Source of the DNA: Petroclostridium xylanilyticum
GTDB lineage: Bacteria > Bacillota > Clostridia > SK-Y3
Length of the DNA: 64,000 nt
Direction: 5' to 3'
NCBI RefSeq assembly: GCF_002252565.1
Contig: NZ_NPML01000002.1
Coordinates: 124,001 to 188,000, forward strand
Shown here: piece by piece, positions 21,699 to 63,240 of the stretch
Numbering within the stretch: the first letter of the stretch is position 1
Layout of the letters: the number at the start of each line of letters is the position of its first letter
Notes under the pieces: generated by a model
Seen by the model: only the letters and a program-made list of their open reading frames with translations
What the model was told of the DNA's origin: nothing
Databases searched by the model: none
Program-made: the position numbers and the translations under genes

Positions 21699-21772
21699 TA
21701 CACCGTTAACTCTACGAGCGATAGGGGGTGTTTTTGCAGTGCTGTACAAATATAACTGCGTTTATTATGGGA

Positions 21773-43066: not shown

Positions 43067-43299
43067 TATTGTTATTAAAGAAAGTTAAATGCGGGGATTA
43101 GGGTTATGGATTCGACGGAAGAGTCTTATGAAATAATTATGGAGTAAAGATATATGTTTTAAGCCTAATTATAACAGGTATGGTGCAAGCTGTGTACTCA
43201 AAAATACATATTGTAGTTTTGGTTAATCTATGTAATATTAGCGGCCGGGATGGTAAAATTAATAAAATCTATAAAGATAACGACTTAGGAGTGATTGAA

Positions 43300-45960: not shown

Positions 45961-45972
45961 AACCATATGGCA

Positions 45973-46012
45973 CAGGAGCGGAATTTAATGTTCCGTTCCT
46001 GCTTTGTTTTTG
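45973..46012 (+). terminator. Intrinsic terminator of the rhamnosidase gene
   Basis: CAGGAGCGGAA and TTCCGTTCCTG form an 11-position stem with one G-T pair, followed by CTTTGTTTTTG. Confidence 0.8.
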
Positions 46013-46114
46013 TTCGGGAAAGTATAATATGAAAATGCACTCATTTTCCATTGGTTTATTGGAATCTTGCTGCTATAATAATAGTAAAGTTCTGATGGGA
46101 AGGACGGAAAATCT

Positions 46115-47932
46115 ATGAGTTTTCAAACGAAGCTATTGCTGACCTATTCTCTATTAATCATACTACTTGTTGTTACCCTTGGAGTAAGTTTTTATCAATA
46201 CAGTGCCGGGGTATTTGAAGCCAATGCCTATTCAAACCTCGCGGTTATTTCGGAAAAGATGTCACAACAGCTCGACAACCTTATTCGCCCAATGGACTTT
46301 ATCATGACCTATCTGCTTTCCAGCGGCAGTTTTATGTCATCTATGGCAAGTATTGCCAATCTTGATAGGGACAATCCCGAAAACCTAGTCTATATCAACG
46401 AGGGTATACAAACCATTAAGGGCACTTTGCTCAGTTACTCGATGGACAAAAACTTTTACAGAGTAAGCGTTTTCAACAACAAAGGGGATTTTTTATCCAG
46501 CAACTTCAGGACACACAACGTGAGCCATAATTTGCTGGAACTGATCCATGGTCTCGGATGGACGGCGCGGGCCGATAGTTCCATGGGAAAAGTGGTAATT
46601 CTTCCGCCGTATGCCGACCCATGGGCATTGTCCGACAACATCAAGGTTTTCGGATTGGCGCGCTCGGTACAGGGACCGAATGGCGGGATGGGTTATATCG
46701 AGGTGCAGAACCCATATCGGGAGCTTGAAAAAATTTTCGCCGTACCTGACCAGGAAAATATTAAGGTGGTTGCTGTCACAAGCGCAGGTGAAATATTTTA
46801 TAACAGCGGTATAACGGACAGTACGTTGCTCGATTATTATTCCAAGCTTCCCGTCGAGGTTAATAAACCTGTGTCCGTTGAAAGGAATTTGGTTACCGGA
46901 AAGGATGAAATATTGGCAAGAACAGGTTCAGGTTACACGGGAATAAAGATTATCCTTGTGCAGGATAAGGACGCCCTGCTCAAGCCGCTTCTATTCACAG
47001 GCAATATCACCATTATCGTTGGTATTCTCGTAATTATCATTTCGTTTATATATATATACATTTTTTCAAAGCAGCTGGCCAGGCCGATACGGCAGCTCAA
47101 GCAAAAAATGGAGTGTATCGAATTGGGGAACCTGCCGGAGAAAATCATCATTAAAAGCTCAAACAATGAAATAGAGGCGCTAAACAACGCATTTCAGCGC
47201 CTGCGTGAAAGGCTTAATGAAGCGGTAAGCCGCGAAATCAAGTCCCAGTCGCTGCAAATGCAGGCCAGCTTTGATTCGCTTCAGGCACAGGTAAACCCCC
47301 ACTTTATCTACAACATCCTTAATGTGCTTTCCAATAAGGGTATTGTAAACGGCGATGATGAGATTTGTGAGATATGCGACAGTATTGCGGCTATGCTGCG
47401 CTACTCAACCTCCACCTTAAAACGTTCAGCCACCATTGGCGAGGAACTGGAACATGTCCGTAATTACCTGCTGCTGATGAAAAAGCGTTTTGAACACCGG
47501 CTGGAATTCAATATTGACGTAGATCCGGCCATTTGCGGACAAGCAATACCTAAAATCGTATTGCAGCAAATTGTTGAAAATTCAATAAACCACGGCTTTG
47601 AAAAATTACAGAAAATCATGAAAATAGGAATCAGAGGCTATGTGTCTGACGGGTGGTGGTATATTGAAATTACCGACAACGGACAGGGATTTGACCAAAA
47701 GGTGCTTTGTGAACTGGAGGAAAGGATAAAGTTAATGGAAAAGGAACTTTTCGGTGTAGAAACCCACACCGGGTTTGCAATTGGTGGAATGGGAATTATC
47801 AACACATATGCAAGGTTGGCACTGTTTTACAATGGCAGATTTGTTTTTACGCTTAAAAACACCGAAACCGGAGGCGCACAAGTGACAATAGGCGGTGCTG
47901 TTGAGTTTGCAAAGGGGAGTGATGAAAAATGA
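46115..47932 (+). CDS. yesM: YesM-type sensor histidine kinase
   Basis: A 605-residue membrane kinase of the LytS/YesM class. A first helix near residues 8-28 and a second near 294-318 flank an extracellular Cache-like domain of about 265 residues. A HAMP segment follows (KQLARPIRQLKQKMECIELG). The phosphoacceptor box is QVNPHFIYNILNVLSNKG, and the ATPase domain has IVLQQIVENSINHGF, ITDNGQGFD and GGMGIINTYARL. This class typically senses oligosaccharide import together with a YesN regulator. Its stop overlaps the regulator start. Confidence 0.93.
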   Translation: MSFQTKLLLTYSLLIILLVVTLGVSFYQYSAGVFEANAYSNLAVISEKMSQQLDNLIRPMDFIMTYLLSSGSFMSSMASIANLDRDNPENLVYINEGIQTIKGTLLSYSMDKNFYRVSVFNNKGDFLSSNFRTHNVSHNLLELIHGLGWTARADSSMGKVVILPPYADPWALSDNIKVFGLARSVQGPNGGMGYIEVQNPYRELEKIFAVPDQENIKVVAVTSAGEIFYNSGITDSTLLDYYSKLPVEVNKPVSVERNLVTGKDEILARTGSGYTGIKIILVQDKDALLKPLLFTGNITIIVGILVIIISFIYIYIFSKQLARPIRQLKQKMECIELGNLPEKIIIKSSNNEIEALNNAFQRLRERLNEAVSREIKSQSLQMQASFDSLQAQVNPHFIYNILNVLSNKGIVNGDDEICEICDSIAAMLRYSTSTLKRSATIGEELEHVRNYLLLMKKRFEHRLEFNIDVDPAICGQAIPKIVLQQIVENSINHGFEKLQKIMKIGIRGYVSDGWWYIEITDNGQGFDQKVLCELEERIKLMEKELFGVETHTGFAIGGMGIINTYARLALFYNGRFVFTLKNTETGGAQVTIGGAVEFAKGSDEK

Positions 47933-49464
47933 TGAGGATTGTGCTGGTCGAAGATGAGCCGTCAGCTATGCGCTATATCAAATCAATTATAGAATTGCGG
48001 TGCAGCGGTTTTAAAATAGTCGATACGGCGGAAAACGGTGCCGAGGGGCTTGAAAAGGTCCGGTTGTTAAAGCCTGATGTAGTTATTACCGACATAAAAA
48101 TGCCGGTCATGGACGGTATCGAACTTGTTTCCCACATCAAGGAGGAGTTCCCGTTTATCTATTCGGTAATTGTAAGCGGATATCAGGATTTTGAATATGC
48201 CAAAGGTGCAATACAGTCCGGCGTTGTTGATTATCTGCTGAAGCCGGTTAACGCCGGCCAGTTGAAAAAACTGCTTGATTCAATACGGCAAAAGCTCGAA
48301 ACAGAATACTATATAAAGCGTGTCGGATTGCTGAAACATATTTTGATCGGCGCGCCGGCGGAGACGTGGCAGGTCGAAAAATACCTGCCATTCAAGTGCT
48401 ATTCGGCGGCCATTCTGCGGGAAAACGGGTTACCCTCGAGATTTTCCTCGAAACATACCGCAGCCGCATATAATCCTGCTGTAGAAGCTTACGCGGTGTC
48501 ATGCACCACAGGTGATAACAGCATATGGGTTCTGACGGGCAGAGATGAACGGGAACTGCTCTTTTTCTGCACTCCGGAACTTACTGATAGGAACGCTTTT
48601 GAGTCGTTGGTTGCAGGAACGGCTGAAAAGCTGACCGGCGGCTACCATACCACAATCTTTGCCTCGGAATTTTTCGGGCTGCTGGAGTGTAAGAATATGG
48701 TTTCCAACCTTTACCGGACTCTGGACAATAATATTGTCATCGGGCTTTCCCAGACAATTTATGAGCTTACCGAAGTCCGGTCCGCTGTAGAAAACCGGGC
48801 CAGTATGGACGGGTCGCTGGGCAACAAGATAGCTTTCCTTGTTTCAAACGCAATGTATGATGGGTTAAAACAGGAATTAATAAAACTTTTTGGCACATGG
48901 GAAAAAGAACGGCGCACCCAACTGTGGGTGGAGAGCAATCTGCGGCAGATACTCCATCATGTCGAAAAACATTCTGCGGTAGCCCGGGGAGGGCAAAGTT
49001 ACGACATTGAATTTTTGCTTGATGAAGCCCTGTACTACTCAACAACCTTCGGTGAACTTATGGCCAATATATGGGAGCTGGTGGAGAAAATTGTACAGTG
49101 TGTTGAAAAAAAGGACCACAAAGTGGATACCCCAGCCTTTTTCAACTCCATTGAGCAATACCTGGAGCAAAATCTTTCGGAGCCGCTTTCGCTTCAATCG
49201 GTCTGTTCAGTATTCGGCATATCCCAGACCTATTTGAGCAGGCTGTTCCGCAAATATAAAAATATGTCCTTTAACGAGTACCTGACAGCCATAAGGATCG
49301 ATGAGGCAAAACGGCTTATTATAGAAAATCCGAATATACCGCTAAAGGATGTAGCCATGCTAGTCGGTTATAACGACCAGTTCTATTTCAGCCGCGTATT
49401 TCGGTCGGTAACCGGTGTGCCACCATCTGAATACATCTTAAAAAGTCCTTCGTCCAAATCATAA
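47929..49464 (+). CDS. yesN: YesN-type response regulator with AraC DNA-binding domain
   Basis: A 511-residue regulator. The receiver domain has VLVEDEPSAMRYIK, the phosphorylated aspartate in VVITDIKMPVMDG and LLKPVNAGQLKK. A long middle domain of unknown ligand follows, then two AraC helix-turn-helix motifs: LSLQSVCSVFGISQTYLSRLF and LKDVAMLVGYNDQFYFSRVFR. It overlaps yesM by four bases. YesMN pairs usually activate adjacent glycan-uptake genes; here the sugar ABC transporter is found only at 60.9 kb, beyond the maltodextrin block. Bases 49176-49301 recur exactly at 60534-60659. Confidence 0.94.
   Translation: MMRIVLVEDEPSAMRYIKSIIELRCSGFKIVDTAENGAEGLEKVRLLKPDVVITDIKMPVMDGIELVSHIKEEFPFIYSVIVSGYQDFEYAKGAIQSGVVDYLLKPVNAGQLKKLLDSIRQKLETEYYIKRVGLLKHILIGAPAETWQVEKYLPFKCYSAAILRENGLPSRFSSKHTAAAYNPAVEAYAVSCTTGDNSIWVLTGRDERELLFFCTPELTDRNAFESLVAGTAEKLTGGYHTTIFASEFFGLLECKNMVSNLYRTLDNNIVIGLSQTIYELTEVRSAVENRASMDGSLGNKIAFLVSNAMYDGLKQELIKLFGTWEKERRTQLWVESNLRQILHHVEKHSAVARGGQSYDIEFLLDEALYYSTTFGELMANIWELVEKIVQCVEKKDHKVDTPAFFNSIEQYLEQNLSEPLSLQSVCSVFGISQTYLSRLFRKYKNMSFNEYLTAIRIDEAKRLIIENPNIPLKDVAMLVGYNDQFYFSRVFRSVTGVPPSEYILKSPSSKS
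49176..49301 (+). repeat. Direct repeat, copy 1 (inside yesN)
   Basis: These 126 bases, coding for the first AraC helix-turn-helix of YesN, are identical in sequence and orientation to 60534-60659. The match begins TTCGGAGCC and ends AAGGATCGA in both places. Confidence 0.95.
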
Positions 49465-49497
49465 CAGAGATATGAATGAGCGCATTTATATAAATAA

Positions 49498-49549
49498 CAC
49501 TAAAACCACTCCCTACACTGAAAGTGTAGGGAGTGGTTTTAGTGATTTT
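49498..49549 (+). terminator. Very strong intrinsic terminator of yesMN
   Basis: A perfect 22-bp stem with a GAA loop: the left arm ends CCACTCCCTACACT, the right arm begins AGTGTAGGGAGTGG, and ATTTTG follows. It lies 34 bases after the yesN stop. Confidence 0.88.
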
Positions 49550-49695
49550 GTTAAGAACTTCAATAGAAGAAAAAGAAAGCTGTTTGTTATTCAGATAAAA
49601 GTTGCTGATATCAATTTTGAAATTCTTATATCTGGAAGAGGAACGGAAATCTGGGCATATTTAACGGTTATAAAAGACATGTTCAATTCCAGCTT

Positions 49696-49935
49696 GTGAA
49701 AGCACATATTCCTTTAAAGGGAGAAGAATTTATTACAATATGCATTATGAGTGCGATAGTATGTGCTATAATATTTGCCCTGGTTTCACAAAGCATTATT
49801 ACCGGTATACTTTTTGGTGGTATCGGATGGTATATACCTATGCTTTTTGTGCAATCAAAAAAGAAAAAAAGAATCAAACATATGAATTTACCATATAATA
49901 AGCGTAATAAAATTGCAAAGCGGACGTACTCCTAA
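49696..49935 (+). pseudogene. Possible fragment of a type II/IV secretion (TadB-like) membrane protein
   Basis: A 79-codon frame with two hydrophobic helices (FITICIMSAIVCAIIFALV and ITGILFGGIGWYIPMLFV) followed by SKKKKRIKHMNLPYNKRNK. The pattern 'helix-GxxIPxxxxxxxxKKRIKxxxxQLP' resembles the segment before the second cytoplasmic domain of TadB/GspF-like proteins. Only that segment is present. The preceding frame from 49550 (KLFVIQIKVADINFEILI) may be part of the same relic. From 49936 to 50210 the DNA is very AT-rich without a credible gene. Confidence 0.3.
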
Positions 49936-50211
49936 TAAAATATTAAGTCTGATTTTTTTTATCACAAAATATAAAGAATAAAAGAGATAATTATCAATAT
50001 AGTAAGATAATTGCAGATATTTAAAAAGAATACAAATATTAAACTATTGCATTTATTAAAAATAAATGTTAATATGATTATAAATAATAAATACATAATT
50101 TTTTTGTTTGTATTAATTAAACCGGTTGCATTATTGATACAAAATATATATAAATTTCTTTTTTTGATAGCTATTAATTTAGAATTAATTAAGTATTTTT
50201 TTTAAGGTGCA

Positions 50212-50227
50212 ATGCAACTGGTTGCAT
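50212..50227. promoter_or_regulatory. LacI-type operator in front of the regulator gene
   Basis: ATGCAACTGGTTGCAT is symmetric except at its centre, as expected for a LacI-family site. It lies 19 bases before the regulator start. A related half-symmetric site, AAACCGGTTGCAT, occurs near 50118. Autoregulation is the simplest reading. Confidence 0.65.
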
Positions 50228-50245
50228 AAAATAAGGGGGTAAGAA

Positions 50246-51280
50246 ATGGCTGTAACAATAAAAGACGTAGCGAAAATGGCAGGAGTATCCACATCAACTG
50301 TATCAAGAGTTTTAAATAACAGTCCACTTATATCACCTGAAACTGTCATAAGAGTAAAAAAAGCAATGCAAGAATTAAATTACTTTCCTAATAGCATGGC
50401 CAGAAGTTTTGCAAATCAAAGCACTTATACTATTGCACTTATTGTTGATATAGACAATTCAAAAGCATTTGCCAACCCATTTTTTTATCAGGTACAGTAT
50501 GGTATTGAAAAAGTTCTTTGTAAACGAGGCTATTATTTAATGATTGCTAATGAAAAAACAATGATTGATCGTGAAGCTGCTTTAAGTAAGTTTGTTTTCG
50601 AGAAAAGGGTTGACGGTATTATACTTCCGGCATCTTTATTAAAAAAAAGTTTTGTAAAAAAAATGGAGGAACAGAAATTTCCTTTCGTTGTTTTAGGAGA
50701 GCCTAATTTTCATTTTGATGTTAATTGGGTGGATATCGATAACCAAATGGCCGGAAAGGTCGCTGCAAATCATTTAATTGACAACGGATATAGAAAAATT
50801 GCATTTATTGCCGGTAGTTTTGAAGATAAATTTAATAGGCATAGATTAGATGGATATAAAAAAGCTCTTGAAGAACATAATATGGAGTTGAATGAAGAGC
50901 TGATAAGTGAAGGTGGATGCACGAAAGAAGATGGATATCGACTTATGAAAAATTTAATTGAAACTAAGGATTTTCTAGATGCAGTGATATTTACAAATAA
51001 TATAGCTGCTTTTGGAGCACTAACAGCTATAAAGGAAAAAGGATATAAGATTCCTGAAGAATTTGGACTTGTTAGTTTTGACAATTATCCTGTTGCCGAA
51101 TTTTCTGATCCTAAGATGACTACCGTAGATATTGATGTTGTTGATTTAGGCATGCAAGCTGCTACAATGCTTTTAAAGGAAATAGAAACGCCGTCTACAA
51201 GTAAGCAGCATAGCCTTCTATCTGTAGAGCTGGTGAGCAGAGGAACAAGCAAAAAATTAAGATTAAGAGGTAATAGCTAA
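50246..51280 (+). CDS. LacI-family regulator of maltodextrin genes (MalR-like)
   Basis: A 344-residue regulator. The N-terminal helix-turn-helix and hinge helix read TIKDVAKMAGVSTSTVSRVLNN and YFPNSMARSFANQSTYTIALI. The sugar-binding core has FANPFFYQVQYGIEKVL, KRVDGIILPAS, GYRKIAFIAGS and FGLVSFDNYPVAEFSDPKMTTVDID. It precedes GH13 and MalEFG genes in the same direction, so a maltose/maltodextrin-responsive repressor is likely. AAGGGGG precedes the start. Confidence 0.92.
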   Translation: MAVTIKDVAKMAGVSTSTVSRVLNNSPLISPETVIRVKKAMQELNYFPNSMARSFANQSTYTIALIVDIDNSKAFANPFFYQVQYGIEKVLCKRGYYLMIANEKTMIDREAALSKFVFEKRVDGIILPASLLKKSFVKKMEEQKFPFVVLGEPNFHFDVNWVDIDNQMAGKVAANHLIDNGYRKIAFIAGSFEDKFNRHRLDGYKKALEEHNMELNEELISEGGCTKEDGYRLMKNLIETKDFLDAVIFTNNIAAFGALTAIKEKGYKIPEEFGLVSFDNYPVAEFSDPKMTTVDIDVVDLGMQAATMLLKEIETPSTSKQHSLLSVELVSRGTSKKLRLRGNS

Positions 51281-51333
51281 TTATTTCAAGGGTGACATGA
51301 AATTAAAATACTAATTAAAAAGGAATGGTAACA

Positions 51334-53124
51334 ATGTTTTGGGAAGCTATTATTCATGAACAAACAAGAGATTATGTTTATCCAATAGAAAGGAATAAAT
51401 TGGCGATAAGACTGAAAATAAAGAGAAAAGATGCAAAATCTTGTACCTTGATTTATTGGAACAGACATAAAAGAGAACGAACAGGAGAACAACATTCTGA
51501 AATGAAATGTTATGCCAGAGATAAAATGTTTGATTACTATGAAACAATTATAAATACAAAGGAGGTTACAAGGTATATTAAATATTTTTTTCAAATTAAT
51601 GATGGCATTAATACATTTTTCCTAAATTATCATGGTATAAGCAGTTCGGTTCCTAAAGATGGCTTTTTTGAATACTTATATACTAATGAAAATGATGTTT
51701 TTAAAGTGCCTGATTGGGTAAAAGGCTCTATATTTTATCAAATTTTCCCTGAAAGGTTTTGCAACGGAGATAAAAATAATGATCCTAAAAGTACAGAACA
51801 ATGGGGTAGTAAACCCACTAGAGAGAATTTTATGGGGGGGGATTTAAAAGGAATAATTCAAAAAATACATTATCTTAAAGATCTGGGTATAAACGCTTTA
51901 TATCTTAATCCTATCTTTGAAGCCTCTGCTAACCATAAGTATGATACTATAAATTATTTTAAAATTGATCCGCATTTTGGAGACTTAAACGATTTTAAAA
52001 CATTAATACATAAGTGTCATTCATATGGGATAAAGGTTATACTTGATGGTGTTTTTAATCACTGTGGATATTTTTCAGACCAATTCCAGGATGTAGTAAA
52101 AAATGGTCAAAATTCAAAATACAAGGATTGGTTTTATATTGAAAGTTTTCCGGTTGATAAAGAAAAATTAAACTATGAGTGCGTTGGCTATTATAAGTGG
52201 ATGCCCAAGCTAAGGATGAGCAATCCGGAAGTTAGAAGTTTTATACTTAAGATTGCAAAGTACTGGATTGAAGAAGGAAATATTGATGGATGGCGTCTGG
52301 ATGTAGCCGATGAAATTGATTTTACATTCTGGCAGGAGTTCAGAAAACTGGTTAAGTCTATAAAGCCTGAATGCTTTATTTTAGCTGAGACATGGAAGGA
52401 AAATAGAGATATGCTCCGTGGAGATCAGATGGATTCAGTAATGAATTATCTTTTTAGAGATGCAGTAGTTGACTTCTTTGCAAAAAAATGTATTAATAGT
52501 TTAGAGTTTGATTCAAGGATTAACAAATTTTTAGGCGTTTATCCTTCGTCTGTACATCATTCACTATTTAATCTTATTGGAAGCCATGATACAGAAAGGT
52601 TCCTGACACTTAGTAATGGTGATAGTAGGAGACTGAAGGCAGCTGCAGCATTTCAATTATGTTTCCCGGGTATTTCTTCCATATATTATGGGGATGAAGT
52701 AGGGTTGGATGGAGAAAATGACCCTGATTGCAGGAAGGCAATGGAATGGGATGAAAAGAAACAAGATCAAAAACTTCTGGAATGGTATAAGAAACTTATA
52801 AGGATTAGAAAATCAAAGTCCGCATTAAAGTTAGGAATTTTCAAATGTAATTACTGCAACTCAGAAGATAACGTGTATGCATTTTTCAGGGAAATAAATA
52901 ATGAAAGAGTCTATATTGTCATAAATAATGCTGATTCAACTATTCAAGTCATACTTCCAGTCAAAGAGCAAAGTTGTGGTTTTCTAACAGATGAAATTTC
53001 AGGAAAAATTTATAGAATAGAACAGCTGGATAACAGCATTTATTACAATGACGATATCATTGATTATTCAGGTACTTTACATATTCAACTTAAGCCATAT
53101 CAAGTATGTATTTTATGCAAGTAA
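51334..53124 (+). CDS. Intracellular GH13 neopullulanase/cyclomaltodextrinase-type enzyme
   Basis: A 596-residue amylase-family enzyme without a signal peptide. Residues 1-110 form an N-terminal CBM34-like beta domain. The barrel shows SIFYQIFPERFCNGD and the catalytic set: nucleophile Asp in GWRLDVADEIDF, acid/base Glu in FILAETWKENRD and stabilising Asp in IGSHDTERFL. The N-terminal domain and the MGGDLKGIIQKIHYLKDLG stretch fit subfamily 20 enzymes that cut cyclodextrins, pullulan or maltodextrins in the cytoplasm. The start at 51334 is preferred because AAAAAGG abuts the earlier ATG at 51325. Confidence 0.9.
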   Translation: MFWEAIIHEQTRDYVYPIERNKLAIRLKIKRKDAKSCTLIYWNRHKRERTGEQHSEMKCYARDKMFDYYETIINTKEVTRYIKYFFQINDGINTFFLNYHGISSSVPKDGFFEYLYTNENDVFKVPDWVKGSIFYQIFPERFCNGDKNNDPKSTEQWGSKPTRENFMGGDLKGIIQKIHYLKDLGINALYLNPIFEASANHKYDTINYFKIDPHFGDLNDFKTLIHKCHSYGIKVILDGVFNHCGYFSDQFQDVVKNGQNSKYKDWFYIESFPVDKEKLNYECVGYYKWMPKLRMSNPEVRSFILKIAKYWIEEGNIDGWRLDVADEIDFTFWQEFRKLVKSIKPECFILAETWKENRDMLRGDQMDSVMNYLFRDAVVDFFAKKCINSLEFDSRINKFLGVYPSSVHHSLFNLIGSHDTERFLTLSNGDSRRLKAAAAFQLCFPGISSIYYGDEVGLDGENDPDCRKAMEWDEKKQDQKLLEWYKKLIRIRKSKSALKLGIFKCNYCNSEDNVYAFFREINNERVYIVINNADSTIQVILPVKEQSCGFLTDEISGKIYRIEQLDNSIYYNDDIIDYSGTLHIQLKPYQVCILCK

Positions 53125-53156
53125 AATATTAAAAATATAGAAATGGAGGGGTTTTT

Positions 53157-54479
53157 ATGAAAAAACGTTTATTTAGAAAGATTATAGGTATTGCTTTAAT
53201 TTTTGTAATGATGGTGTCTATGGCTGTGGGATGTAGCAATCAGGTGCCTAGTGAATCCAAAGATAAAAATTTAAAAAGTACGGAGAGCACTTCACAGGAA
53301 AAAGAAAAGGAAAAAGTAACAATTAGTTTTTGGCACCATTACAATGCACAATCTCCGGAAAACAAAACATTAAATGAAGTGATTATACCAGCGTTTGAGG
53401 AAAAATTTCCTCACATAAAAGTTAAAGCAGTTTCTCATGAATGGGCCCAGTTACATAAAAAAATATTGGTAAGTGCAAGTGCCAATCAACTACCCGATGT
53501 TGCAAGATCTGATATAGCATGGGTTCCGGAATTTCAGAAATTAAACATACTTGTGGCTTTAGATAAGGAAATGAAAGACTTTCAGAACGTAGCAAATAAC
53601 ATTTTAGAAGGTCCGATGAATACAGCAAAGGTTAAAGGAAATTATTATGGATTAGGATTAAATACCAATACCAAAATATTGTTTTACAATAAAGAAATGT
53701 TTGATAAAGCACAAGTAGCAGTTCCTAAAACAATGGATGAATTCTTTGAAGCAGCGAGGAAGCTTACAAAGGAAGAGAATGGACAAAAGATTTGGGGTTA
53801 TGCAGAGCCGGCACTTTCAGGATGGAATATATGCCCATTTATATGGAGTAACGGAGGGGATATAACAGACCCTGAGTATAAAGTTGCTACTGGATACCTT
53901 AATAGTCCTGAAACCATAGAAATAATTCAAAAGCTCGCTGATCTTTATAAAGATGGCGCAATGATAGGATTTAACAAAGGTGACATTCCTCTTACAGACG
54001 GGTATGGACGAGGCAGATATGCTATGATTATTGAAGGGCCATGGAAATTTGCAGAATTAGCTGGTTCGTATCCTGACTTTAAGCCTGAAACCGCTCAGAT
54101 GCCTGCTGGAAAAGGTGGTTCAGCGCAGGTTCTTGGAGGAGAAGATATTATCATGTTCAGTACTGCTAATAAAGAAGCTGCATGGGAATTTATGAAGTTT
54201 ATGACTGGTGAATTTGCTCAAATAGAGATGGCTAAAGTTGGGCAAATTCCAGTAAACAAAACCGCTATTGAATCTGATGCTGTTAAGGGTATTAAAAACT
54301 TCGCTCCATTCCTTAAAGCAATAAAAACTGCTAAACCAAGACCGCCTGTATCAACTTGGCCGGAAATTGATAAAGAGTTAACAACTGCAGTAACATTAGC
54401 AATAACGGGAGAAAAGCCAGTTAAAGCTGCTCTTGATGATGCAGCTAAAAAAATTGATGAATTATTGAAAAAGCAGTAA
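53157..54479 (+). CDS. Maltodextrin ABC transporter binding lipoprotein (MalE-like)
   Basis: A 440-residue family 1 binding protein. The signal peptide ends SMAVGC with the lipid cysteine at residue 26, followed by a charged serine/lysine linker. Motifs include VTISFWHHYNAQSPENKTL, LPDVARSDIAWVPEF, NTKILFYNKEMFDKA and GRYAMIIEGPWKFAEL. The position between a cytoplasmic maltodextrin hydrolase and MalFG permeases supports maltodextrin binding. GGAGGGG precedes the start. An ATPase is not encoded here, so a shared MsmX-type ATPase elsewhere is expected. Confidence 0.92.
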   Translation: MKKRLFRKIIGIALIFVMMVSMAVGCSNQVPSESKDKNLKSTESTSQEKEKEKVTISFWHHYNAQSPENKTLNEVIIPAFEEKFPHIKVKAVSHEWAQLHKKILVSASANQLPDVARSDIAWVPEFQKLNILVALDKEMKDFQNVANNILEGPMNTAKVKGNYYGLGLNTNTKILFYNKEMFDKAQVAVPKTMDEFFEAARKLTKEENGQKIWGYAEPALSGWNICPFIWSNGGDITDPEYKVATGYLNSPETIEIIQKLADLYKDGAMIGFNKGDIPLTDGYGRGRYAMIIEGPWKFAELAGSYPDFKPETAQMPAGKGGSAQVLGGEDIIMFSTANKEAAWEFMKFMTGEFAQIEMAKVGQIPVNKTAIESDAVKGIKNFAPFLKAIKTAKPRPPVSTWPEIDKELTTAVTLAITGEKPVKAALDDAAKKIDELLKKQ

Positions 54480-54488
54480 AATTATGTA

Positions 54489-54530
54489 ATTAGCGTAATG
54501 GTAAGTAACGTTACTTACCATTACGCTAAT
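54489..54530 (+). promoter_or_regulatory. 42-bp perfect palindrome between malE-like and malF-like genes
   Basis: The sequence is fully symmetric about 54509/54510; one half reads ATTAGCGTAATGGTAAGTAA, closing on a central CG. In RNA it folds into a hairpin of roughly 19 base pairs with a tiny loop. It lacks a T tract, so a processing or stabilising element that favours the binding protein is likely. Confidence 0.8.
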
Positions 54531-54564
54531 ATTATAAAATTAATTAAAGTTTGGGGTGGAAGAA

Positions 54565-55500
54565 ATGACTCAGGTAAAGCAAGGTACTATAGATATGTTT
54601 TTGCAAAACAAATTCAGATTTAACAAAATAAGTATTAAAGGATTACAAATATTTTTGCTTCTTTTACCCGGTTTAATAACTTTTGGTTTATTTACTATAT
54701 ATCCTATTGTAAAGTTGTTTGTAATGAGCTTTTTTGATTGGAAAATAGGGCTAAATCAGGCATCACCATTTGTAGGGATGGGTAATTATATAGAGGTATT
54801 TAAAGACCCTGTATTTAGAATTTCTATTACCAATACGCTTATGTATGCTATTATCACGGTTCCTAGCCAGATTGTTATAGGGCTATTAATTGCTGTTTTA
54901 ATACATAATATTTCAAAATTTAAAGTTGGTTTTAGAGTTTTATATTACTTACCGGTAATAACATCATGGGTAATTGTTTCATTGGTATTTAGATATATTT
55001 TTAATAATGAAGGATTTTTAAATTACTTTTTAAAGGACATTATAAATATTGTAAGTGATAACATAAGATGGCTCGATAAGCCCATGACAGGTATGTTTGT
55101 AGCAGAGTTATTAGGGATTTGGAAAGGTATTGGATGGAATATGGTAGTATTCCTTGCTGCATTGCAATGCATACCAAAAGAGTTATATGAAGTTGCTGAT
55201 ATAGATGGATGCAATAGATTGAAAAAGTTTTTTTATATAACTCTTCCGTCTATAAAAAATACCATACTATTTGCGGTGGTTATGCTTAGTATTGGTGCGT
55301 TTAATGTATTTACGTCAATACAACTAATGACTGGCGGACAGCCTGCGCATCAAACGGAAGTGGTATTGACTTGGATGTATTATAAGGCATTTGAAGCTAG
55401 AGATTTTGGGTATGCTGCTGCACTATCATATATTGTTGCCTTAGTAATTGCAGTTATTACCATTATTCAATTTAAATTTTTTAAGAGATTTAATGATTAG
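54565..55500 (+). CDS. Sugar ABC transporter permease, MalF/UgpA type
   Basis: A 311-residue permease with six predicted helices. The first helix region reads LQIFLLLLPGLITFGLFTIYPI, and the ATPase-contact loop is YEVADIDGCNRLKKFFYITLPSI (the 'EAA' motif). The start at 54565 follows GGGGTGG. It is immediately followed by the second permease. Confidence 0.93.
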   Translation: MTQVKQGTIDMFLQNKFRFNKISIKGLQIFLLLLPGLITFGLFTIYPIVKLFVMSFFDWKIGLNQASPFVGMGNYIEVFKDPVFRISITNTLMYAIITVPSQIVIGLLIAVLIHNISKFKVGFRVLYYLPVITSWVIVSLVFRYIFNNEGFLNYFLKDIINIVSDNIRWLDKPMTGMFVAELLGIWKGIGWNMVVFLAALQCIPKELYEVADIDGCNRLKKFFYITLPSIKNTILFAVVMLSIGAFNVFTSIQLMTGGQPAHQTEVVLTWMYYKAFEARDFGYAAALSYIVALVIAVITIIQFKFFKRFND

Positions 55501-55515
55501 ATGGGGGGATTGCGA

Positions 55516-56352
55516 GTGGAAAAGCAAAATAGAGTTTACAGTTTGTTGATATATTTTATATTAACATTAGGAGTAATAATAACAACAACACCAATGCTAT
55601 ATATGTTAAGTACTTCTTTTAGACCTAATGGTGCATTATATGAATATCCCCCAAAATTAATACCCGATGTTTTTACACTGGAAAATTATAAATATGTTCT
55701 TTTTAAAGTAAACTTTTACAAAAACTTTTTAAACAGTCTGATTGTAGCGCTGTGTACAGTTTTATTAGCAGCTTTTGTTTCATCTACTCTTGCGTATTGT
55801 ATAGCGAGGTTTGATTTTATAGGAAAAAAATTATTGTTCGGACTTATAATGACTACTATGATTATTCCAGGAATGACACTTATTATACCGCAATTTGAGC
55901 TTATTGTATGGTTAAAGCTTATTAATAAATTATTTGGACTAATTCCTGTATATGTATCCTGGGTGGTTCCGTTCTCAACATTTATGATAAAAGGATTTAT
56001 TGAAGATATACCAAAGGATTTTGATGATGCAATTTATATTGATGGGGGAACAGTGTTTACCGTATATAATAAAATAATGTTGCCGCTTGCAAGCCCAGCG
56101 GTTGCAGCAGTAAGTATTTTTAACTTTTTGATTGCATGGGAGGAATATCCCTGGGCTTTAACAGTTATAAATGATGTTGAAAAAAGAACATTACCAATAG
56201 CTATTTCAGGATTTTTCGGACAACATAATTTTACTCAATGGGGTTATGTATTTGCAATGTCAGTTATATCGTTAATACCTGTTATTGTAATATTTATTGC
56301 CTGTCAAAAGTTTTTTGTAACAGGTTTATCTGCAGGAGCGATAAAGGGATAA
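55516..56352 (+). CDS. Sugar ABC transporter permease, MalG/UgpE type
   Basis: A 278-residue permease with six helices, partner of the preceding gene. It shows TTPMLYMLSTSFRPNGALYEYPP, NFLNSLIVALCTVLL and the EAA loop DFDDAIYIDGGTVFTVYNKIMLP. The GTG start at 55516 sits behind GGGGGGATT. IS copy 2 follows after about 235 bases that contain no gene. Confidence 0.92.
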   Translation: MEKQNRVYSLLIYFILTLGVIITTTPMLYMLSTSFRPNGALYEYPPKLIPDVFTLENYKYVLFKVNFYKNFLNSLIVALCTVLLAAFVSSTLAYCIARFDFIGKKLLFGLIMTTMIIPGMTLIIPQFELIVWLKLINKLFGLIPVYVSWVVPFSTFMIKGFIEDIPKDFDDAIYIDGGTVFTVYNKIMLPLASPAVAAVSIFNFLIAWEEYPWALTVINDVEKRTLPIAISGFFGQHNFTQWGYVFAMSVISLIPVIVIFIACQKFFVTGLSAGAIKG

Positions 56353-56588
56353 GTAGTGTCTATCTATAGATGATTCTTAAAAACGTTCATAGCATATACT
56401 AGCGGAGATGTTAAAAAGATTCAAGATGAGGTTATTTTGGATTTATAGAGAAAAATATTATCATAATGAAAATTTGTTATGTGCGGATAACATATATCGA
56501 CAATTTGGAGGAAATTATTAAGAATTTCAGGTTAAAACCCTTGAAATAAAAGGTGTTGTAGAGTATACAACTGCCTAATCAATTTTTT

Positions 56589-58038
56589 GAAGGTAATCGA
56601 AAAGCAGCTGGAAATTAAAGAAACAGAGAATTTTAACAGTAAAATATCCATTAATTTGAATTCAATATACTTGCCCCTTGAAAACCGCAAAGGCCTCAGA
56701 ATCCCGAGGGACTTTAGGAAACATTCTTGGATCAAAATCAGGTTTGATGTAGACGACGTTGCCGTAATTGCTGTCCGAGCATTTACACTCCTTTGGGGGT
56801 TCCAAGCCTTTTGTCGCAAACCAGCAACGATATTTAACGCCTTTAGGTTCAACAAAGCCCCAGTTGACCATAGGGATTCCTCCATGACAAATGGGATGGC
56901 CATGGTCATCAAAGCAGAGGATATCCGGGTGGGGATAGTTGAATTTGGCTTTAGTCCTGGAATCCAGAGAGATAAAAGGTGCAATGCCGTAATGCTTTAA
57001 AAGCTCATAGATAGGATAGTTGTCCATGGCGCCATCCGCTACAAAGCTTTTAAAATTAAGATATGGATATAGTTTATGGATATCCTGGAGGGCGAAGACG
57101 GTGGTAATACTGTCATGGCGGCTTGCCTGAACCATCTTGATGTAAATGGGAAGGTCATAGGGGCTGTCTGAAGCGGTGACATTGAAAAGAGTATTGCCAA
57201 AGAACCACTGTTCGCGGTAACTATCCCATCCCCATTTTGCATCCGGGTCGGAGAACCTTCTGGGGCATTGGCAATTAAAGATTCCCTTTGAGCGGCAGTC
57301 GCAAACCTTAACACCATAGTGACTGGCGCCAGAATAAAAGGGTGAGCCGTCGAATTTGGCTTAAGCTTTTCGCCAGCCTTCAGTTTTAACCTTGGCTTGC
57401 TGGTAAACTTTTTGACTTTCTTTTTCCGATTCAGGTGAAGCTTACGGTCTGCTCTCCAAAATCGGATTAGGAAATCATAGTAGGAGGCAGCAGCCGGAGC
57501 TTTGACGACAAAACCGCAAATATCAAAAAGCAAAGGATCAGAGGCTACCTTTAAAGCCCAATTTGTGATAGAATAAACCTGTTGGTCAAGCATTAATACG
57601 AGTGAGCGTATTATACCTTGCTGATTTTTGGCGGGTCGGCCAGAATCAGGGTATAAAGGCTTGACTACGGGAAGCAGGTTATCCAGGTTGAGTAGATAGA
57701 GCTTTGAAATGCTTTTATCCAGTGCAACCAGCCTGCTTCTTTGCGTTTCATAATACAGGAGCATTTTCAGGCGAAGCTTTTCCTGGTAATTGCAATGTGG
57801 TGTCCAATCTCGTAACATAAAAAACCTCCAAAACAGAAGATATGGTAATAAATACCATCCACTTCCATTTTGGGGCGAACGTGTGTTTGTCAAGATAGAT
57901 AAGAGCCATTTATGGGTATATATGGGAATATAACTGGAAATTTAGAAAAAATTTTTCATTAAAAAGTAGGGGTGAAGCAGAAATGCTGAACCTTGAAAAT
58001 CTATAAAATTAAAGCTCTCTGAGTTTTCGAGAGCGTAC
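56589..58038 (-). mobile_element. Insertion sequence copy 2 (1450 bp)
   Basis: Same element and orientation as copy 1 at 23509-24958, with five base differences. Here the element is flanked by TTTTTT on both sides, a possible target duplication that copy 1 lacks, so this may be the more recent insertion. It lies between the MalG-like permease and the secreted amylase gene. Confidence 0.9.
56662..57818 (-). pseudogene. Frameshifted, C-terminally short transposase (copy 2)
   Basis: Identical in structure to copy 1: start MLRDWTPHCNYQEKLRL behind GGAGG, the same one-base frameshift near 57358, and the same early stop after FPKVPRDSEAFAVFKGQVY. Sharing both defects means they existed before duplication, so movement must have relied on a transposase supplied elsewhere. 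Confidence 0.8.
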
Positions 58039-58160
58039 TTTTTTGATAAAGGAGGGGATACCAATGGTTACTTAAGAATCAAGGGTAGACAATAGGTTGA
58101 TCGGTTTTTAGTTTTTAATTTTTACTAAAAAACAAAAGATAAAAGAAAGGGGAACATAGA

Positions 58161-59984
58161 ATGAAAAGATTTAGAAAATTATCTTTAATTGTTACATTTA
58201 TTTTTATACTTACAGTAGTAAGTGGAAATTTCTCAATAGCAAATGCAGCAAGATTAGGATTCGATAATAATGATATAGTATATATGATATTAACTGACCG
58301 CTATCCTGATGGTGATCCTTCAAATAATGGTATATTAGGTCAAGAATATAGGCCGGGAGAGCTCAAATATCATCAAGGTGGAGACTGGCAGGGTATTATT
58401 GACAAGATACCATACATTAAAGATTTAGGAGTAACAGCAATATGGATTTCTCCTCCTTCAGAAAATGAGCTATTTAGTAGAGATGGTAGCGAATCAGGAT
58501 ACCATGGATATTTTACTCATGATTATTATAGTGCAGACCCTCATTTTGGAACTAAAGCTAAACTAAAAGAATTGGTAGATACTGCTCATGCAAATGGTAT
58601 AAAGGTAATTCTTGATGTGGTACCAAATCATACAGCAGATTATTTAGATCCATATGCGACTGAGTACAGTTCAGCTGATTATCAACCAGCTTATCCATTT
58701 AATAATCCTAATTGGTATCATCATAATGGAGATATTCAGGACTGGAATGATCAATGGCAAGTGGAAAATTGTGATTTAGGTGGATTAGATGATATTGCTC
58801 AAGAAAATACGGCAGCAAGAAATGAAATCAAAAAGGTTTACAAAATGTGGGTTGATGATTTTGATATTGATGCTGTTCGTGTAGATGCAGCTCGTTCGAT
58901 ACCTAAAGACTTTTTACAAGAATTTGAATCTTATCTCGGGGTACCGTCATTTGGGGAAATATTTTACGGTGATGTTGATTATGTAAGTGATTATCAGAAC
59001 TATGAATGGGGTGTTTTAGATTTTCCATTATTTTTCAAAGCTAGAGAAGTATTTGCCCATGATGCTAGTTTTTATGATGTAAAAAATATACTAGACCAAG
59101 ATTATAAATATAAAGATCCTAATAAGCTAGTAACATTCCTTGATAATCATGATAGAGATCGTTTCTTATGCCTTGCAGATGATAATTATGCTAAGTTAAG
59201 ATTGGGAATGACATTTTTATTTACCGTAAGAGGAATTCCAGATGTATATTACGGAACTGAGCAAGCATTTTATGGTGGTGGAAGACCAACAGAATGGCAA
59301 GGAATTGCTAATAAAGAAAATCGTGAAGTAATGAATGTATTTGACCAGAATAATATTATATATAAACATATCAAGCGACTTGCACAAATACGAAAAGATT
59401 ATGAACCTTTAAGAAATGGTACACAACGTGAAATGTGGGTTGATGACAAAGTATTTTCATATTCACGTAGAAATGATACCACAGGGGATGAAGTAATAAC
59501 CATACTCAACAATGATTGGAATATTGTAACAAGAACTATTCCATTAAGAACAGAAAGTTCTATTCCTGTAGGAACTATATTAACGAATCTTTTAGATACT
59601 TCACAAACAGTTGAGGTTACTTCTGGTGGAGTAACTGGAAAACAGATAACAGTAACTATTCCTAAGAATAATGCTATGATACTGGTTCCAGGAACACCTG
59701 CAAGTTATATTCCTTCAGCGCCTACAGTAACTACAATAAGAGTACATTATGATGTTGGCTGGGGTAACACAATGTATTTAAGAGGAGATACTTATCCATT
59801 ATGGTGGGATCAAGGAAGAAAAATGAGAAATGTTGCGCCGGATATTTGGGAATTTGAGATAGAACGTATTCCAGCAGGTACTACTTTTGAATTTAAGCCT
59901 CTTATAAATGATACTACATGGTCATCAGGGAATAACTTCATAGGAGTAGGTGGTGAAACCATAGACATATATCCGACTTTCTAA
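58161..59984 (+). CDS. Secreted GH13 alpha-amylase-type enzyme with C-terminal starch-binding-like domain
   Basis: A 607-residue secreted enzyme. The signal peptide ends near SIANAA (residue 30). The catalytic barrel begins NDIVYMILTDRYPDGDPSNN and has VILDVVPNHTADY, nucleophile Asp in IDAVRVDAARS, acid Glu in PSFGEIFYGD and Asp in FLDNHDRDRFL. The opening and the GYHGYFTHDYYSADPHFG stretch resemble cyclodextrin glucanotransferase/maltogenic amylase relatives. The last 80 residues (TIRVHYDVGWGNTMYLRGD and onward) form a carbohydrate-binding-like beta domain. AAAGGGG precedes the start. Outside the cell it should release maltodextrins for the MalEFG-type importer. Confidence 0.92.
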   Translation: MKRFRKLSLIVTFIFILTVVSGNFSIANAARLGFDNNDIVYMILTDRYPDGDPSNNGILGQEYRPGELKYHQGGDWQGIIDKIPYIKDLGVTAIWISPPSENELFSRDGSESGYHGYFTHDYYSADPHFGTKAKLKELVDTAHANGIKVILDVVPNHTADYLDPYATEYSSADYQPAYPFNNPNWYHHNGDIQDWNDQWQVENCDLGGLDDIAQENTAARNEIKKVYKMWVDDFDIDAVRVDAARSIPKDFLQEFESYLGVPSFGEIFYGDVDYVSDYQNYEWGVLDFPLFFKAREVFAHDASFYDVKNILDQDYKYKDPNKLVTFLDNHDRDRFLCLADDNYAKLRLGMTFLFTVRGIPDVYYGTEQAFYGGGRPTEWQGIANKENREVMNVFDQNNIIYKHIKRLAQIRKDYEPLRNGTQREMWVDDKVFSYSRRNDTTGDEVITILNNDWNIVTRTIPLRTESSIPVGTILTNLLDTSQTVEVTSGGVTGKQITVTIPKNNAMILVPGTPASYIPSAPTVTTIRVHYDVGWGNTMYLRGDTYPLWWDQGRKMRNVAPDIWEFEIERIPAGTTFEFKPLINDTTWSSGNNFIGVGGETIDIYPTF

Positions 59985-60103
59985 TTTTTCTATTAGCATA
60001 GCTTATTAACTCTGAACCATGAAAATGATAATAAACGTGTGGCGAGGGAGTAGTATCCCGTAAGGAAAAACAAAATAGCTGATGTAATAAAAAAGAAAAG
60101 CAG

Positions 60104-60132
60104 GAAGAGCAGGATTATTCCTGCTCTTCTTT
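60104..60132. terminator. Intrinsic terminator
   Basis: GAAGAGCAGGA and TCCTGCTCTTC form a perfect 11-bp stem with a TTAT loop, followed by TTTATAT. It serves the amylase gene and may work in both directions. Confidence 0.8.
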
Positions 60133-60531
60133 ATATGGAAATATTTTTATCAATAATCTAATGTTTGTGTCAAGTAGAAGTTTGCAATTTTTTATCCCTT
60201 CCGGAGGTTCCGGCAGCTCAAGGTTGTCCCTCTCATGGTACAGTATTAATCCATCAAGATTGCTTTTTAGGCATTCTTCAAGATTTTGAAGCTTTTCTAC
60301 CTTATCGCACTCTCCTCCACACTCATATTTGAGTTCTTCTATACGCGCTAAAGCTTTTTGTACATTTCCGGATTTAATCAGTCGTGCTATCTTTTTTGCT
60401 TCTTTCTTATCGTATACCTGCCACAGAATTGCCTTGAATATATGAAACCTGTCCAGTTGGCAGTGTTTTTCAGCTGTATTTGTACATTCACTAATCCATT
60501 TTGCTCCGTCACCGTTTAATACTCTTACCTT
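60115..60531 (-). pseudogene. ISLre2-family transposase fragment
   Basis: Minus-strand sequence reads KVRVLNGDGAKWISECTNT and CQLDRFHIFKAI, then LELPEPPEGIKNCKLL. These are diagnostic of ISLre2 (UPF0236) transposases. The N-terminal half is missing: the frame runs into the 126-base yesN repeat at 60534. The C-terminal part is lost into a terminator hairpin. It marks a rearrangement junction. Confidence 0.85.
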
Positions 60532-60533
60532 AA

Positions 60534-60659
60534 TTCGGAGCCGCTTTCGCTTCAATCGGTCTGTTCAGTATTCGGCATATCCCAGACCTATTTGAGCAGG
60601 CTGTTCCGCAAATATAAAAATATGTCCTTTAACGAGTACCTGACAGCCATAAGGATCGA
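60534..60659 (+). repeat. Direct repeat, copy 2 (isolated yesN fragment)
   Basis: An exact 126-base copy of 49176-49301, here without the rest of yesN. It is bounded by an ISLre2 fragment on the left and the hairpin element on the right. It encodes only the first AraC helix-turn-helix and cannot be functional. Confidence 0.95.
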
Positions 60660-60760
60660 GGTATTAGGACTTCTTGGCGCAGTGAGATATGCAGGCGCAC
60701 TGTTTGAGCGAAGCGAGTTTGCGCCTGCCTGACACAAGCCTTGGAAGTCCTATGCCTCGA
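60656..60760. other. Nested hairpin element of unknown type
   Basis: Outer arms TCGAGG..AGGACTTC (60656-60673) and GAAGTCC..CCTCGA (60744-60760) pair with small mismatches. Inside, GCAGGCGCA (60691) pairs with TGCGCCTGC (60720), with GCGAAGCGAG in the loop. The element is GC-rich in an AT-rich setting and non-coding. It lies about 160 bases before the sugar-binding protein gene, so it could be a structured leader RNA or a repeat. I do not recognise it. Confidence 0.5.
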
Positions 60761-60920
60761 ATCTCTGCGGGTGAAACAATGCACCTTTATACAGTGGCTG
60801 TGCGGTGATTGTGTTGGATTTTACATCAAAATGTACTGTTTACTCTATGTATTATTACAGCTAACAATGGTACAATCGTATCGTAGTTCTAATAAAACAA
60901 TTTATAAGGAGGATGCATGT

Positions 60921-62288
60921 ATGAGTAAAACAAGAAAGAAAATTAAAAAAATGGTTGCGCTGATATCCTGTGTCGCAATGCTTATAGCGGTATTTCCAGG
61001 CTGCGCAAACCAGAAAACGGCAGCACCGGACAAAAACGCCCCGGCACAGTCGGACGGTACGCAAAACCAGACCCCGGCTGCTCCCGATAAGAAGGTTACC
61101 CTTACATTACTGATTGGTAATCAAACCACACTGGATGGCCTGAAGGGTGTAATGGAAGCCATTGAAAAAAAGTACAACATTGCAACCGAGATTGAGCTTC
61201 GGCCGGGCGGTGCGGAGGGGGATAACGTTGTAAAGACCCGCCTTGCCACCGGCGATATGGCCGACCTGTGCTTTTACAACTCGGGTTCGCTCTTCCAAGT
61301 CCTAAATCCCGAGCAAAACTTCGTTGATCTTACAAACGAGCCGTTTATGAGCAACGTATTAGATTTCTTTAAATCTACCGTCAGCGCAAACGAGAAAGTA
61401 TACGGAATCCCTGCCAACACTGTTATGAGTGGAGGATGGTTATATAATAAAAAGGTGTATGCCGAGTTAGGACTTTCGGTTCCCAAGACATGGGATGAAC
61501 TCTTGGCCAACTGCGAAAAGATTAAGGGTGCCGGTAAAACTGCGGTAATTGGGTCATACAAGGATGACTGGACCTCACAGCTTATCCTGCTTGCCGATTA
61601 TTTTAATGTGCAGGCGCAGGTTCCCAACTTTGCTGCGGACTATACTGCCAACAAGGCCAAATTTGCCACTACCCCCGCCGCCCTCCGTGGCTTTGAAAAA
61701 CTGTATGAGATCAATAAGAAGGGTTACATGAACAAGGATTTTCTTGCCACCACCTATGATGCTGCTCTAAAAATGCTGGCTGAAGGTACCGGGGTGCATT
61801 ATCCGATGCTTTCCACCAGTGTTAGTAATATAGAGGCTAATTTCCCTGATAAGGTAAATGATATCGGTTTTTTTGCACAACCCGGCGACAGTGCGGATAA
61901 AAACGGACTTACTGTATGGACGCCCGAAGGTATTTATATAAGCAAGAACAGCAAAAACATTGAAGCTGCTAAAAAGTGGGCAGAATTCTTTGTTTCCCAG
62001 GAGGGTATTGCTGCCTATGTATCAAAGCAAAAACCTGGAGGACCGTTTGCTATAAAGGGGGCAACACTTCCCGACGATGTCTTCCCTGCCGTTAAGGATG
62101 TGATCCAATACTTTGATGCAGGCAATACTGCTCCTGCGCTTGAATTCCTTTCACCCATCAAGGGTCCGAACCTGCCGCAGATTTGCGTTGAGGTTGGCAG
62201 CGGCCTTAAGGCGCCGTCAGTGGCTGCTCAGGAGTATGACAGGGATGTTGAGAAGCAGGCCAAGCAGCTTGGCTTTCCCGGCTGGTAA
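60921..62288 (+). CDS. Sugar ABC transporter binding lipoprotein
   Basis: A 455-residue family 1 binding protein. The signal peptide ends AVFPGC with the lipid cysteine at residue 28, then an alanine/proline-rich linker. The core shows VTLTLLIGNQTTLDGLKGVM, ATGDMADLCFYNSGS, VYAELGLSVPKTWDELLANC and a C-terminal helical lobe. AAGGAGG precedes the start at 60921. Base composition and style match the rhamnosidase-YesMN genes rather than the starch block, so it probably imports rhamnosyl or pectin-derived oligosaccharides. The substrate is inferred only. Confidence 0.9.
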   Translation: MSKTRKKIKKMVALISCVAMLIAVFPGCANQKTAAPDKNAPAQSDGTQNQTPAAPDKKVTLTLLIGNQTTLDGLKGVMEAIEKKYNIATEIELRPGGAEGDNVVKTRLATGDMADLCFYNSGSLFQVLNPEQNFVDLTNEPFMSNVLDFFKSTVSANEKVYGIPANTVMSGGWLYNKKVYAELGLSVPKTWDELLANCEKIKGAGKTAVIGSYKDDWTSQLILLADYFNVQAQVPNFAADYTANKAKFATTPAALRGFEKLYEINKKGYMNKDFLATTYDAALKMLAEGTGVHYPMLSTSVSNIEANFPDKVNDIGFFAQPGDSADKNGLTVWTPEGIYISKNSKNIEAAKKWAEFFVSQEGIAAYVSKQKPGGPFAIKGATLPDDVFPAVKDVIQYFDAGNTAPALEFLSPIKGPNLPQICVEVGSGLKAPSVAAQEYDRDVEKQAKQLGFPGW

Positions 62289-62373
62289 GCCGATAATCTT
62301 AGTTGATTTTGAATGAATAATGCATGGCCCTGCAATTTTCATGTAGGGCCAATTTTCTAAAGGAGAGATGACT

Positions 62374-63240
62374 ATGACCCAAATATCAAAAAAAATGTAC
62401 TCGTATGCTTTTCTTTTACCTGCCGGCATCATTTATTGCGGATTGTTTTTGCTGCCAACCGTGATGTCGTTCTTTTTCAGCATGACAAGGTGGACACTTA
62501 CCGATTGGCAGTTTATAGGATTTGAAAACTATATCACTTTTTTATCGGAGCCATCGTTGAATATCGGTTTTAGGAACACAATTATTTACGCTGTGCTGAC
62601 CTGCGGCTTGAAAGTGATATTTGGGTTCCTGCTTGGTACATTCCTTTGTACAAATATCAAGACAAAAGATTACCTCCGCTCGGTGGTTTTTTTTCCAAAT
62701 CTTTTGAGTACCATAGCAGTTGGGGTTGCCTTCGGCAGCATGATGCACCCGTCTCAGGGACTTATTAACAAGGCTCTTGCCGCAGTTGGAATTATAGGGC
62801 CGGACTGGCTGGGCAACACCAAACTTGCCCTTTTATCGGTTATTTTTGTAGACGTTTGGAAGGGCGTAGGCGTGGCTACCGTCATCTTCATAGCCGGGAT
62901 CATGTCAATTCCCCAGCAGTATTATGAGGCGCTTATGATCGATGGGGGCGGCTCTTTTGAAAAGTTTTGGCATATCACTCTGCCTCTTAGCCGTCCGGCC
63001 ATGAATTCGGTCATCATCCTGGCATTGATTGGCGGTTTGCGTTCCTTCGACCTGATATGGACAATGACAAAGGGAGGACCGGGTTTCACCACCGACCTCA
63101 TTGCTTCGATTATTTACAAACAGTATGCTGCGGGATTTTATGGCCTCTCAACGGCAGGTAATGTCATATTGTTCATAATAGTGTCGATTATAGCCTTCCC
63201 ATTATATAGATTTCTTACCAAAAGCGAGGTGGATTTATGA
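62374..63240 (+). CDS. Sugar ABC transporter permease, MalF/UgpA type
   Basis: A 288-residue permease with six helices: SYAFLLPAGIIYCGLFLLPT opens it, and the ATPase-contact loop YEALMIDGGGSFEKFWHITLPL is intact. The start at 62374 follows AAAGGAGAG; an ATG at 62368 abuts it. It follows the binding-protein gene and overlaps the next permease by four bases. Confidence 0.93.
   Translation: MTQISKKMYSYAFLLPAGIIYCGLFLLPTVMSFFFSMTRWTLTDWQFIGFENYITFLSEPSLNIGFRNTIIYAVLTCGLKVIFGFLLGTFLCTNIKTKDYLRSVVFFPNLLSTIAVGVAFGSMMHPSQGLINKALAAVGIIGPDWLGNTKLALLSVIFVDVWKGVGVATVIFIAGIMSIPQQYYEALMIDGGGSFEKFWHITLPLSRPAMNSVIILALIGGLRSFDLIWTMTKGGPGFTTDLIASIIYKQYAAGFYGLSTAGNVILFIIVSIIAFPLYRFLTKSEVDL

Follow-up and report, generated by a model that had tools for sequence, protein, structure and literature searches.

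One known route of rearrangement begins with a tandem duplication across a short joint, which a deletion then remodels. Short-patch double illegitimate recombination (SPDIR) is a second system with a bearing on the present case, and was described in Acinetobacter (Harms et al. 2016, cited in PMC7192050 and PMC8116780). A third is provided by the insertion sequences IS1549 and IS1634, whose repeats range from 8 to 514 bp and had, according to PMC2266710, not been given a mechanistic model; in G. kaustophilus, IS elements that include IS1634 and ISLre2 members have repeats of 4-9 bp only. Searches for literature on bacterial templated insertions returned mostly eukaryotic papers. Here I will discuss a locus of Petroclostridium xylanilyticum in which an exact 126-bp piece of the regulatory gene yesN stands on both sides of a block of starch genes, and will argue that when an exact repeat brackets an acquired gene block it is not necessarily the footprint of the block's insertion. 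The window, meaning the whole stretch of 64,000 nucleotides that was analysed, is C2:124001-188000 of a 3.86-Mb draft assembly in 41 contigs, and all positions below are those of the window unless a contig is named.

The starch block and its host locus

The rhamnosyl-glycan locus, the starch/maltodextrin block within it and the debris at the block's left border comprise the following features:

43180..45960, plus strand: GH78 alpha-L-rhamnosidase, whose gene opens the interrupted locus (Pfam Bac_rhamnosid6H, 7e-128; GC 53%)
46115..47932, plus strand: yesM-type sensor kinase (His_kinase and HAMP)
47929..49464, plus strand: yesN-type response regulator, intact, 511 aa, source of the patch (Pfam Response_reg and HTH_AraC)
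49498..49544, no strand assigned: near-perfect hairpin 3' of yesN, terminator-like on both strands (20 pairs)
49539..49630, minus strand: border debris, 92-bp fragment that matches an IS-bearing stretch of contig C23 at 83% identity
49631..49877, plus strand: border debris, piece of a pilus-assembly gene (tadB-like on inspection) that matches the genome's own copy on contig C11 at 71% identity
50246..51280, plus strand: LacI-family regulator, block start
51325..53124, plus strand: GH13 enzyme of the cyclomaltodextrinase/neopullulanase type
53157..54479, plus strand: MalE-type binding protein
54556..55500, plus strand: putative MalF-type permease (from its translation and operon position)
55501..56352, plus strand: putative MalG-type permease (from its translation and operon position)
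56589..58038, minus strand: 1450-bp IS within the block, with a weak IS1182-type match and a broken transposase frame
58161..59984, plus strand: secreted GH13 amylase, last block gene
60921..62288, plus strand: sugar-binding protein belonging to the rhamnosyl-glycan transporter, its gene ancestrally next to yesN
62368..63240, plus strand: first permease of the rhamnosyl-glycan transporter, 65-79% identical to relatives

Judged by gene order and composition, the starch block is an insertion between yesN and its former neighbour, the binding-protein gene, because the ancestral order in which these two genes adjoin is found elsewhere and the composition breaks where the block begins and ends. The initial annotation had proposed looking among relatives for yesN directly before the binding protein, and this is what was found: in a Clostridiaceae MAG (L071) a single strand carries GH78, yesM, yesN (full-length, 45%), the binding protein and two permeases in succession; starch genes are absent there, and a gap of 99 bp separates yesN from the binding protein. 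Across related loci a yesN-like regulator stands immediately 5' of the binding protein in 28 of 43. The relatives of the binding protein come from Bacilli and the one Clostridiaceae MAG (49-68%), the ancestral gene order was recovered solely outside the taxonomic order of the source organism, and among relatives within that order neither an orthologous locus nor a pre-event state of the stretch at the block's right border, where relics of an ISLre2 element and a hairpin MITE now lie, was found. GC content is 53, 44 and 46% in GH78, yesM and yesN, 30-37% in the starch genes and 48 and 44% in the binding protein and permease, GC3 drops from about 0.5 to about 0.2 on entering the starch genes, and composition thus shifts sharply at both block borders. 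The order lacI-nplT-malE is also present elsewhere (L204, 44-52%). The gap between yesN and lacI is filled by the two abutting fragments listed above, of 92 bp and 247 bp. Taken over both borders, the debris differs from its closest genomic matches by 7-29%.

The initial annotation had thus read this part of the window well, since the LacI, GH13, MalE-F-G-type ABC transporter and amylase content is right, the strong terminator that it noted between the two copies is the 20-pair hairpin after yesN, and the starch locus does lie within a rhamnosyl-glycan locus; it missed the 1450-bp IS in the block, the debris at the left border and a hairpin MITE at 60658 to about 60798. A starch block in a conserved yesMN transporter locus makes a clean case of locus mosaicism. 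The rhamnosyl-glycan locus (43180-49464 and 60921-63240) has a GC content of 44-53%, against 37% in the sampled contigs, and its high GC and a transporter closest to those of Bacilli suggest that it may itself have been acquired.

Several other elements were observed in the window. Just two full copies of the 1450-bp IS exist genome-wide, both of them in the window (23509-24958 and 56589-58038), in the same orientation and 99.66% identical, and the second separates malG from the amylase gene and does not lie at the block borders. A further transposase gene, distantly IS1182/IS5-like, occupies 31031-32209, and a cobalamin riboswitch lies at 21513-21707 (106 bits, Rfam); at the locus itself Rfam gave no match.

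The repeated piece of yesN

At the right border of the block a copy of the yesN piece, hereafter the patch, lies between the relics of two mobile elements:

49176..49301, plus strand: 126-bp yesN piece, native (donor) copy
60115..60533, minus strand: ISLre2-family transposase fragment, truncated (NCBIfam transpos_ISLre2, 6e-12, profile positions 171-277 of 382; PF06782)
60534..60659, plus strand: 126-bp patch, a copy of yesN 49176-49301
60658..60798 (end approximate), plus strand: hairpin MITE-like element without its left terminal arm, with matches at seven other genome sites

The two pieces were first noticed as identical and in the same orientation, the one inside an intact yesN and the other beside an ISLre2 remnant, and all of this was borne out: the match is 126/126 in direct orientation, with a start-to-start distance of 11,358 bp, the first copy lies within the 511-aa response-regulator/AraC gene, and the second adjoins the truncated transposase fragment. 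The origin of such an exact match by chance is far beyond expectation, the next-best repeats across the 14.5-kb region being of 28 and 26 nt at 75-77% identity. Throughout the assembly the piece occurs only twice, at the two sites in the window (3.86 Mb searched, in which a copy would be invisible on C8-C10, C16, C20, C21, C24, C30 and C32-C41, whose fetched ends were all N).

Both edges of the patch are chimeric, and the neighbour at each edge is truncated there. On the left, the donor reads ...AAAATCT|TTCGG and the patch ...CCTTAA|TTCGG, with the ISLre2 fragment ending at 60533/60534 and lacking its N-terminal part at this edge; on the right, the donor reads ...GGATCGA|TGAGG and the patch ...GGATCGA|GGTATTAGG, a joint at which two bases (GA) are common to the donor and the native MITE, near chance expectation. 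The donor copy continues uninterrupted into native yesN coding sequence (49302-49464), of which no trace follows the patch, where MITE sequence stands instead. These edges dispose of two simple candidates. A transposon target-site duplication is rejected, the left copy running into native yesN and not into inserted DNA, and neither copy having element ends, the right one adjoining the truncated ISLre2 and MITE; and a single-crossover (Campbell) integration is rejected, as had already been held at the outset, the right copy continuing as the MITE and not as yesN.

Whether the second copy exists at all deserves consideration, since an assembler, or gap filling between repetitive elements, might have produced it. 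The assembly is a 41-contig draft, a length of 126 is k-1 at the commonly used k of 127, and mobile-element sequence lies on both sides of the copy; however, contig-end overlaps range from 31 to 317 bp with no fixed length of 126 or 127 bp, unique sequence flanks the patch within a single 252-kb contig, the assembly resolved both the near-identical 1450-bp IS pair and many exact repeats of 40-270 bp, and an artefact would take two separate chimeric joints. I therefore regard an assembly artefact as improbable.

The reading with which the analysis began was that the repeat is the footprint of an insertion or duplication event that placed the starch locus. Of the two routes to the scar proposed below, one retains duplication, but the footprint of a block insertion is unsupported, and in no simple form does the repeat mark the placement of the block: the left copy is seamless into yesN and the right copy lies between truncated older elements. 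A fuller version of the footprint would have the block enter by recombination or duplication, leaving a longer copy of the yesN 3' part that a MITE insertion and deletions later trimmed to 126 bp. The copy does sit exactly at the boundary between the block and the ancestral locus, the ancestral adjacency of yesN and the binding protein is well supported, and the composition breaks match the borders, yet yesN 49302-49464 leaves no trace after the copy, and several extra events would have to fit within the time set by 0/126 differences while the debris nearby is much older. This history is accordingly unlikely, though not negligible. The repeat is best read as an ordinary scar left by a recent rearrangement where the inserted block ends. 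The absence of any difference between the copies (0/126) places the upper bound of their divergence at ~2.3%, and because the debris is diverged by 7-29% the copy is probably younger than the borders, a comparison to be read in the knowledge that debris can arrive already diverged.

Hairpin elements and IS1634-family duplications

The right joint of the patch falls at the base of the strong inner stem of the MITE, a stem that folds much more stably than shuffled sequences do, with z = -5.2 (RNA) and -4.8 (DNA parameters). The seven matches elsewhere in the genome are 81-93% identical, and an alignment of the copies reveals an inner hairpin enclosed by long terminal inverted repeats. The left arm is kept in four copies (L007, L008, L009 and L015) and is entirely missing from the window copy, and two further copies (L004 and L006) have likewise lost it near the window copy's breakpoint. 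As a family (window 60658-60798; L004, L006-L009, L013 and L015), these MITE-like elements have an estimated full length of about 230 bp and have often lost one arm or half the hairpin; no transposase associated with them was identified, and no long direct repeats were found around their copies or those of the 1450-bp IS.

The hairpin also invites an RNA-mediated reading, in which a reverse transcriptase copies a transcript of the hairpin, switches to yesN mRNA, and the chimera integrates. The yesN piece is in sense orientation and 5' of the hairpin element, as such a template switch would give, but the chimera has no target duplication and the terminal inverted repeats of the MITE-like element are of the DNA-transposon type, making this reading very improbable.

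When 388 kb were surveyed for other gene-fragment copies of this kind, most short repeats were seen to belong to element families, and at rnr an 86-bp repeat was traced to a 280-bp IS1634-related MITE, whose target duplication it is. IS1634-type elements and MITEs were sampled at C2:85656-85935 (L191:5656-5935), L229-L236 and L242-L248, all in the same genome and outside the window; separately, C2:214900-226800 and C3:14500-17550 (L195 and L197) hold clustered repeats of 100-315 bp, 80-100% identical and common to both contigs. Nine near-identical 280-bp MITEs are flanked by exact direct repeats of 86, 43, 67, 125, 139, 82, 66, 142 and 18 bp, and their autonomous relatives of ~2 kb, which encode IS1634-family transposases (365-373 bits against a cut-off of 100 in the three scanned), by repeats of 82, 144, 121, 113, 271 and (offset) 42 bp, with one copy lacking a repeat. 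Of 16 cases examined, 12 have the CCC end of the element directly behind a perfect TATAAT, and the number rises to 14 when one mismatch is allowed; a -35-like hexamer 16-18 bp upstream has a mean score of 4.6 of 6, against 2.6 at 631 background TATAAT sites. From these sequences, it seems that in IS1634-type insertion one cut is fixed just after a promoter's -10 box and the other is variable, and with one fixed and one variable cut the duplication would usually rebuild the promoter of the downstream gene. That these elements land just behind -10 boxes and make long exact duplications is relevant to duplication lengths for which, according to PMC2266710, a mechanistic model had not been proposed.

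Such elements naturally raise the question of whether the yesN repeat is itself a long target-site duplication of an IS1634-family element. Long exact direct repeats accompany 15 of the 16 elements and MITEs examined, and 126 bp falls within their range of 18-271 bp; against this, neither IS1634 nor its MITE lies near either copy or anywhere in the window, the left copy continues as native yesN and not as an element, and the edges are GGATCGA|TGAGG and TTCGG and not TATAAT|CCC, which refutes the simple form of the idea and leaves any other form scarcely credible.

A probable rearrangement scar and its relatives

I consider it rather likely, though a fair distance short of certain, that a recent rearrangement produced the right copy as a scar, and that it did so at the edge of a starch block which by then was probably already resident in the rhamnose-use cluster. 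Where the block ends on the right, DNA synthesis or a joining reaction would have left the ISLre2 relic at 60533, jumped 11.36 kb backward into yesN at 49176, copied yesN in the same orientation as far as 49301, and joined forward at about 60658-60660, where the MITE hairpin has its base, with loss of the DNA between the ISLre2 relic and the MITE, the left arm of the MITE included. This might have happened in one step, as a single templated patch made by template switching or short-patch double illegitimate recombination, or in two, with tandem duplication of the 11.36-kb unit creating the joint ISLre2|yesN and a non-homologous deletion then removing the second copy up to the MITE. The two routes predict an identical final structure. 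The window holds no other block-derived repeats, as expected had a second-copy deletion been complete. The order of events, the breakage provoked by the hairpin and the mechanism are what I infer from this structure.

Direct orientation, with donor and acceptor on opposite sides of the block, agrees with either a backward jump or a tandem duplication, and capture of a random genomic donor would make the shared orientation and the block-flanking positions a coincidence. Capture by classical NHEJ is unlikely because no Ku homologue was found (no PF02735 match in this 99%-complete genome, the B. subtilis control being positive). A wider proposal, that hairpin mobile elements here are recurrent break points healed with copies of nearby genes, is a long shot; if true, gene-fragment patches would mark the borders of acquired loci, and the patches in question would be the 126-bp yesN piece and the older pilus-gene piece at 49631-49877.

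How, then, does the scar compare with the known systems? The repeats of IS1634 and IS1549 (8-514 bp; PMC2266710) resemble it in that exact direct repeats of similar length occur in this genome, and differ in that the yesN repeat has no element, element ends or target sequence. Sugar-use blocks inserted by mobile elements offer a parallel in the IS/MITE and gene-fragment debris that borders the block within another sugar locus, although no complete element brackets the starch block. Tandem duplication followed by deletion shares the direct orientation and the joining of the copy to the far end of the flanked unit, the joint from ISLre2 60533 to yesN 49176 running from end of unit to start; the difference is that the second copy is otherwise gone, which leaves the duplication itself a supposition. 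Of a templated patch of the SPDIR kind one would expect microhomology at both joints and a RecA-independent origin at replication forks. SPDIR, in the form in which the citing papers summarize it, differs from a patch of 126 bp with neighbouring DNA lost and a microhomology figure from the right joint only, but it shares with the patch the ectopic placement of a short intragenomic segment between two non-homologous joints, as in any templated patch, and the yesN scar exemplifies a patch of this intragenomic kind, set at a hairpin element, in a bacterium in which no Ku was detected.
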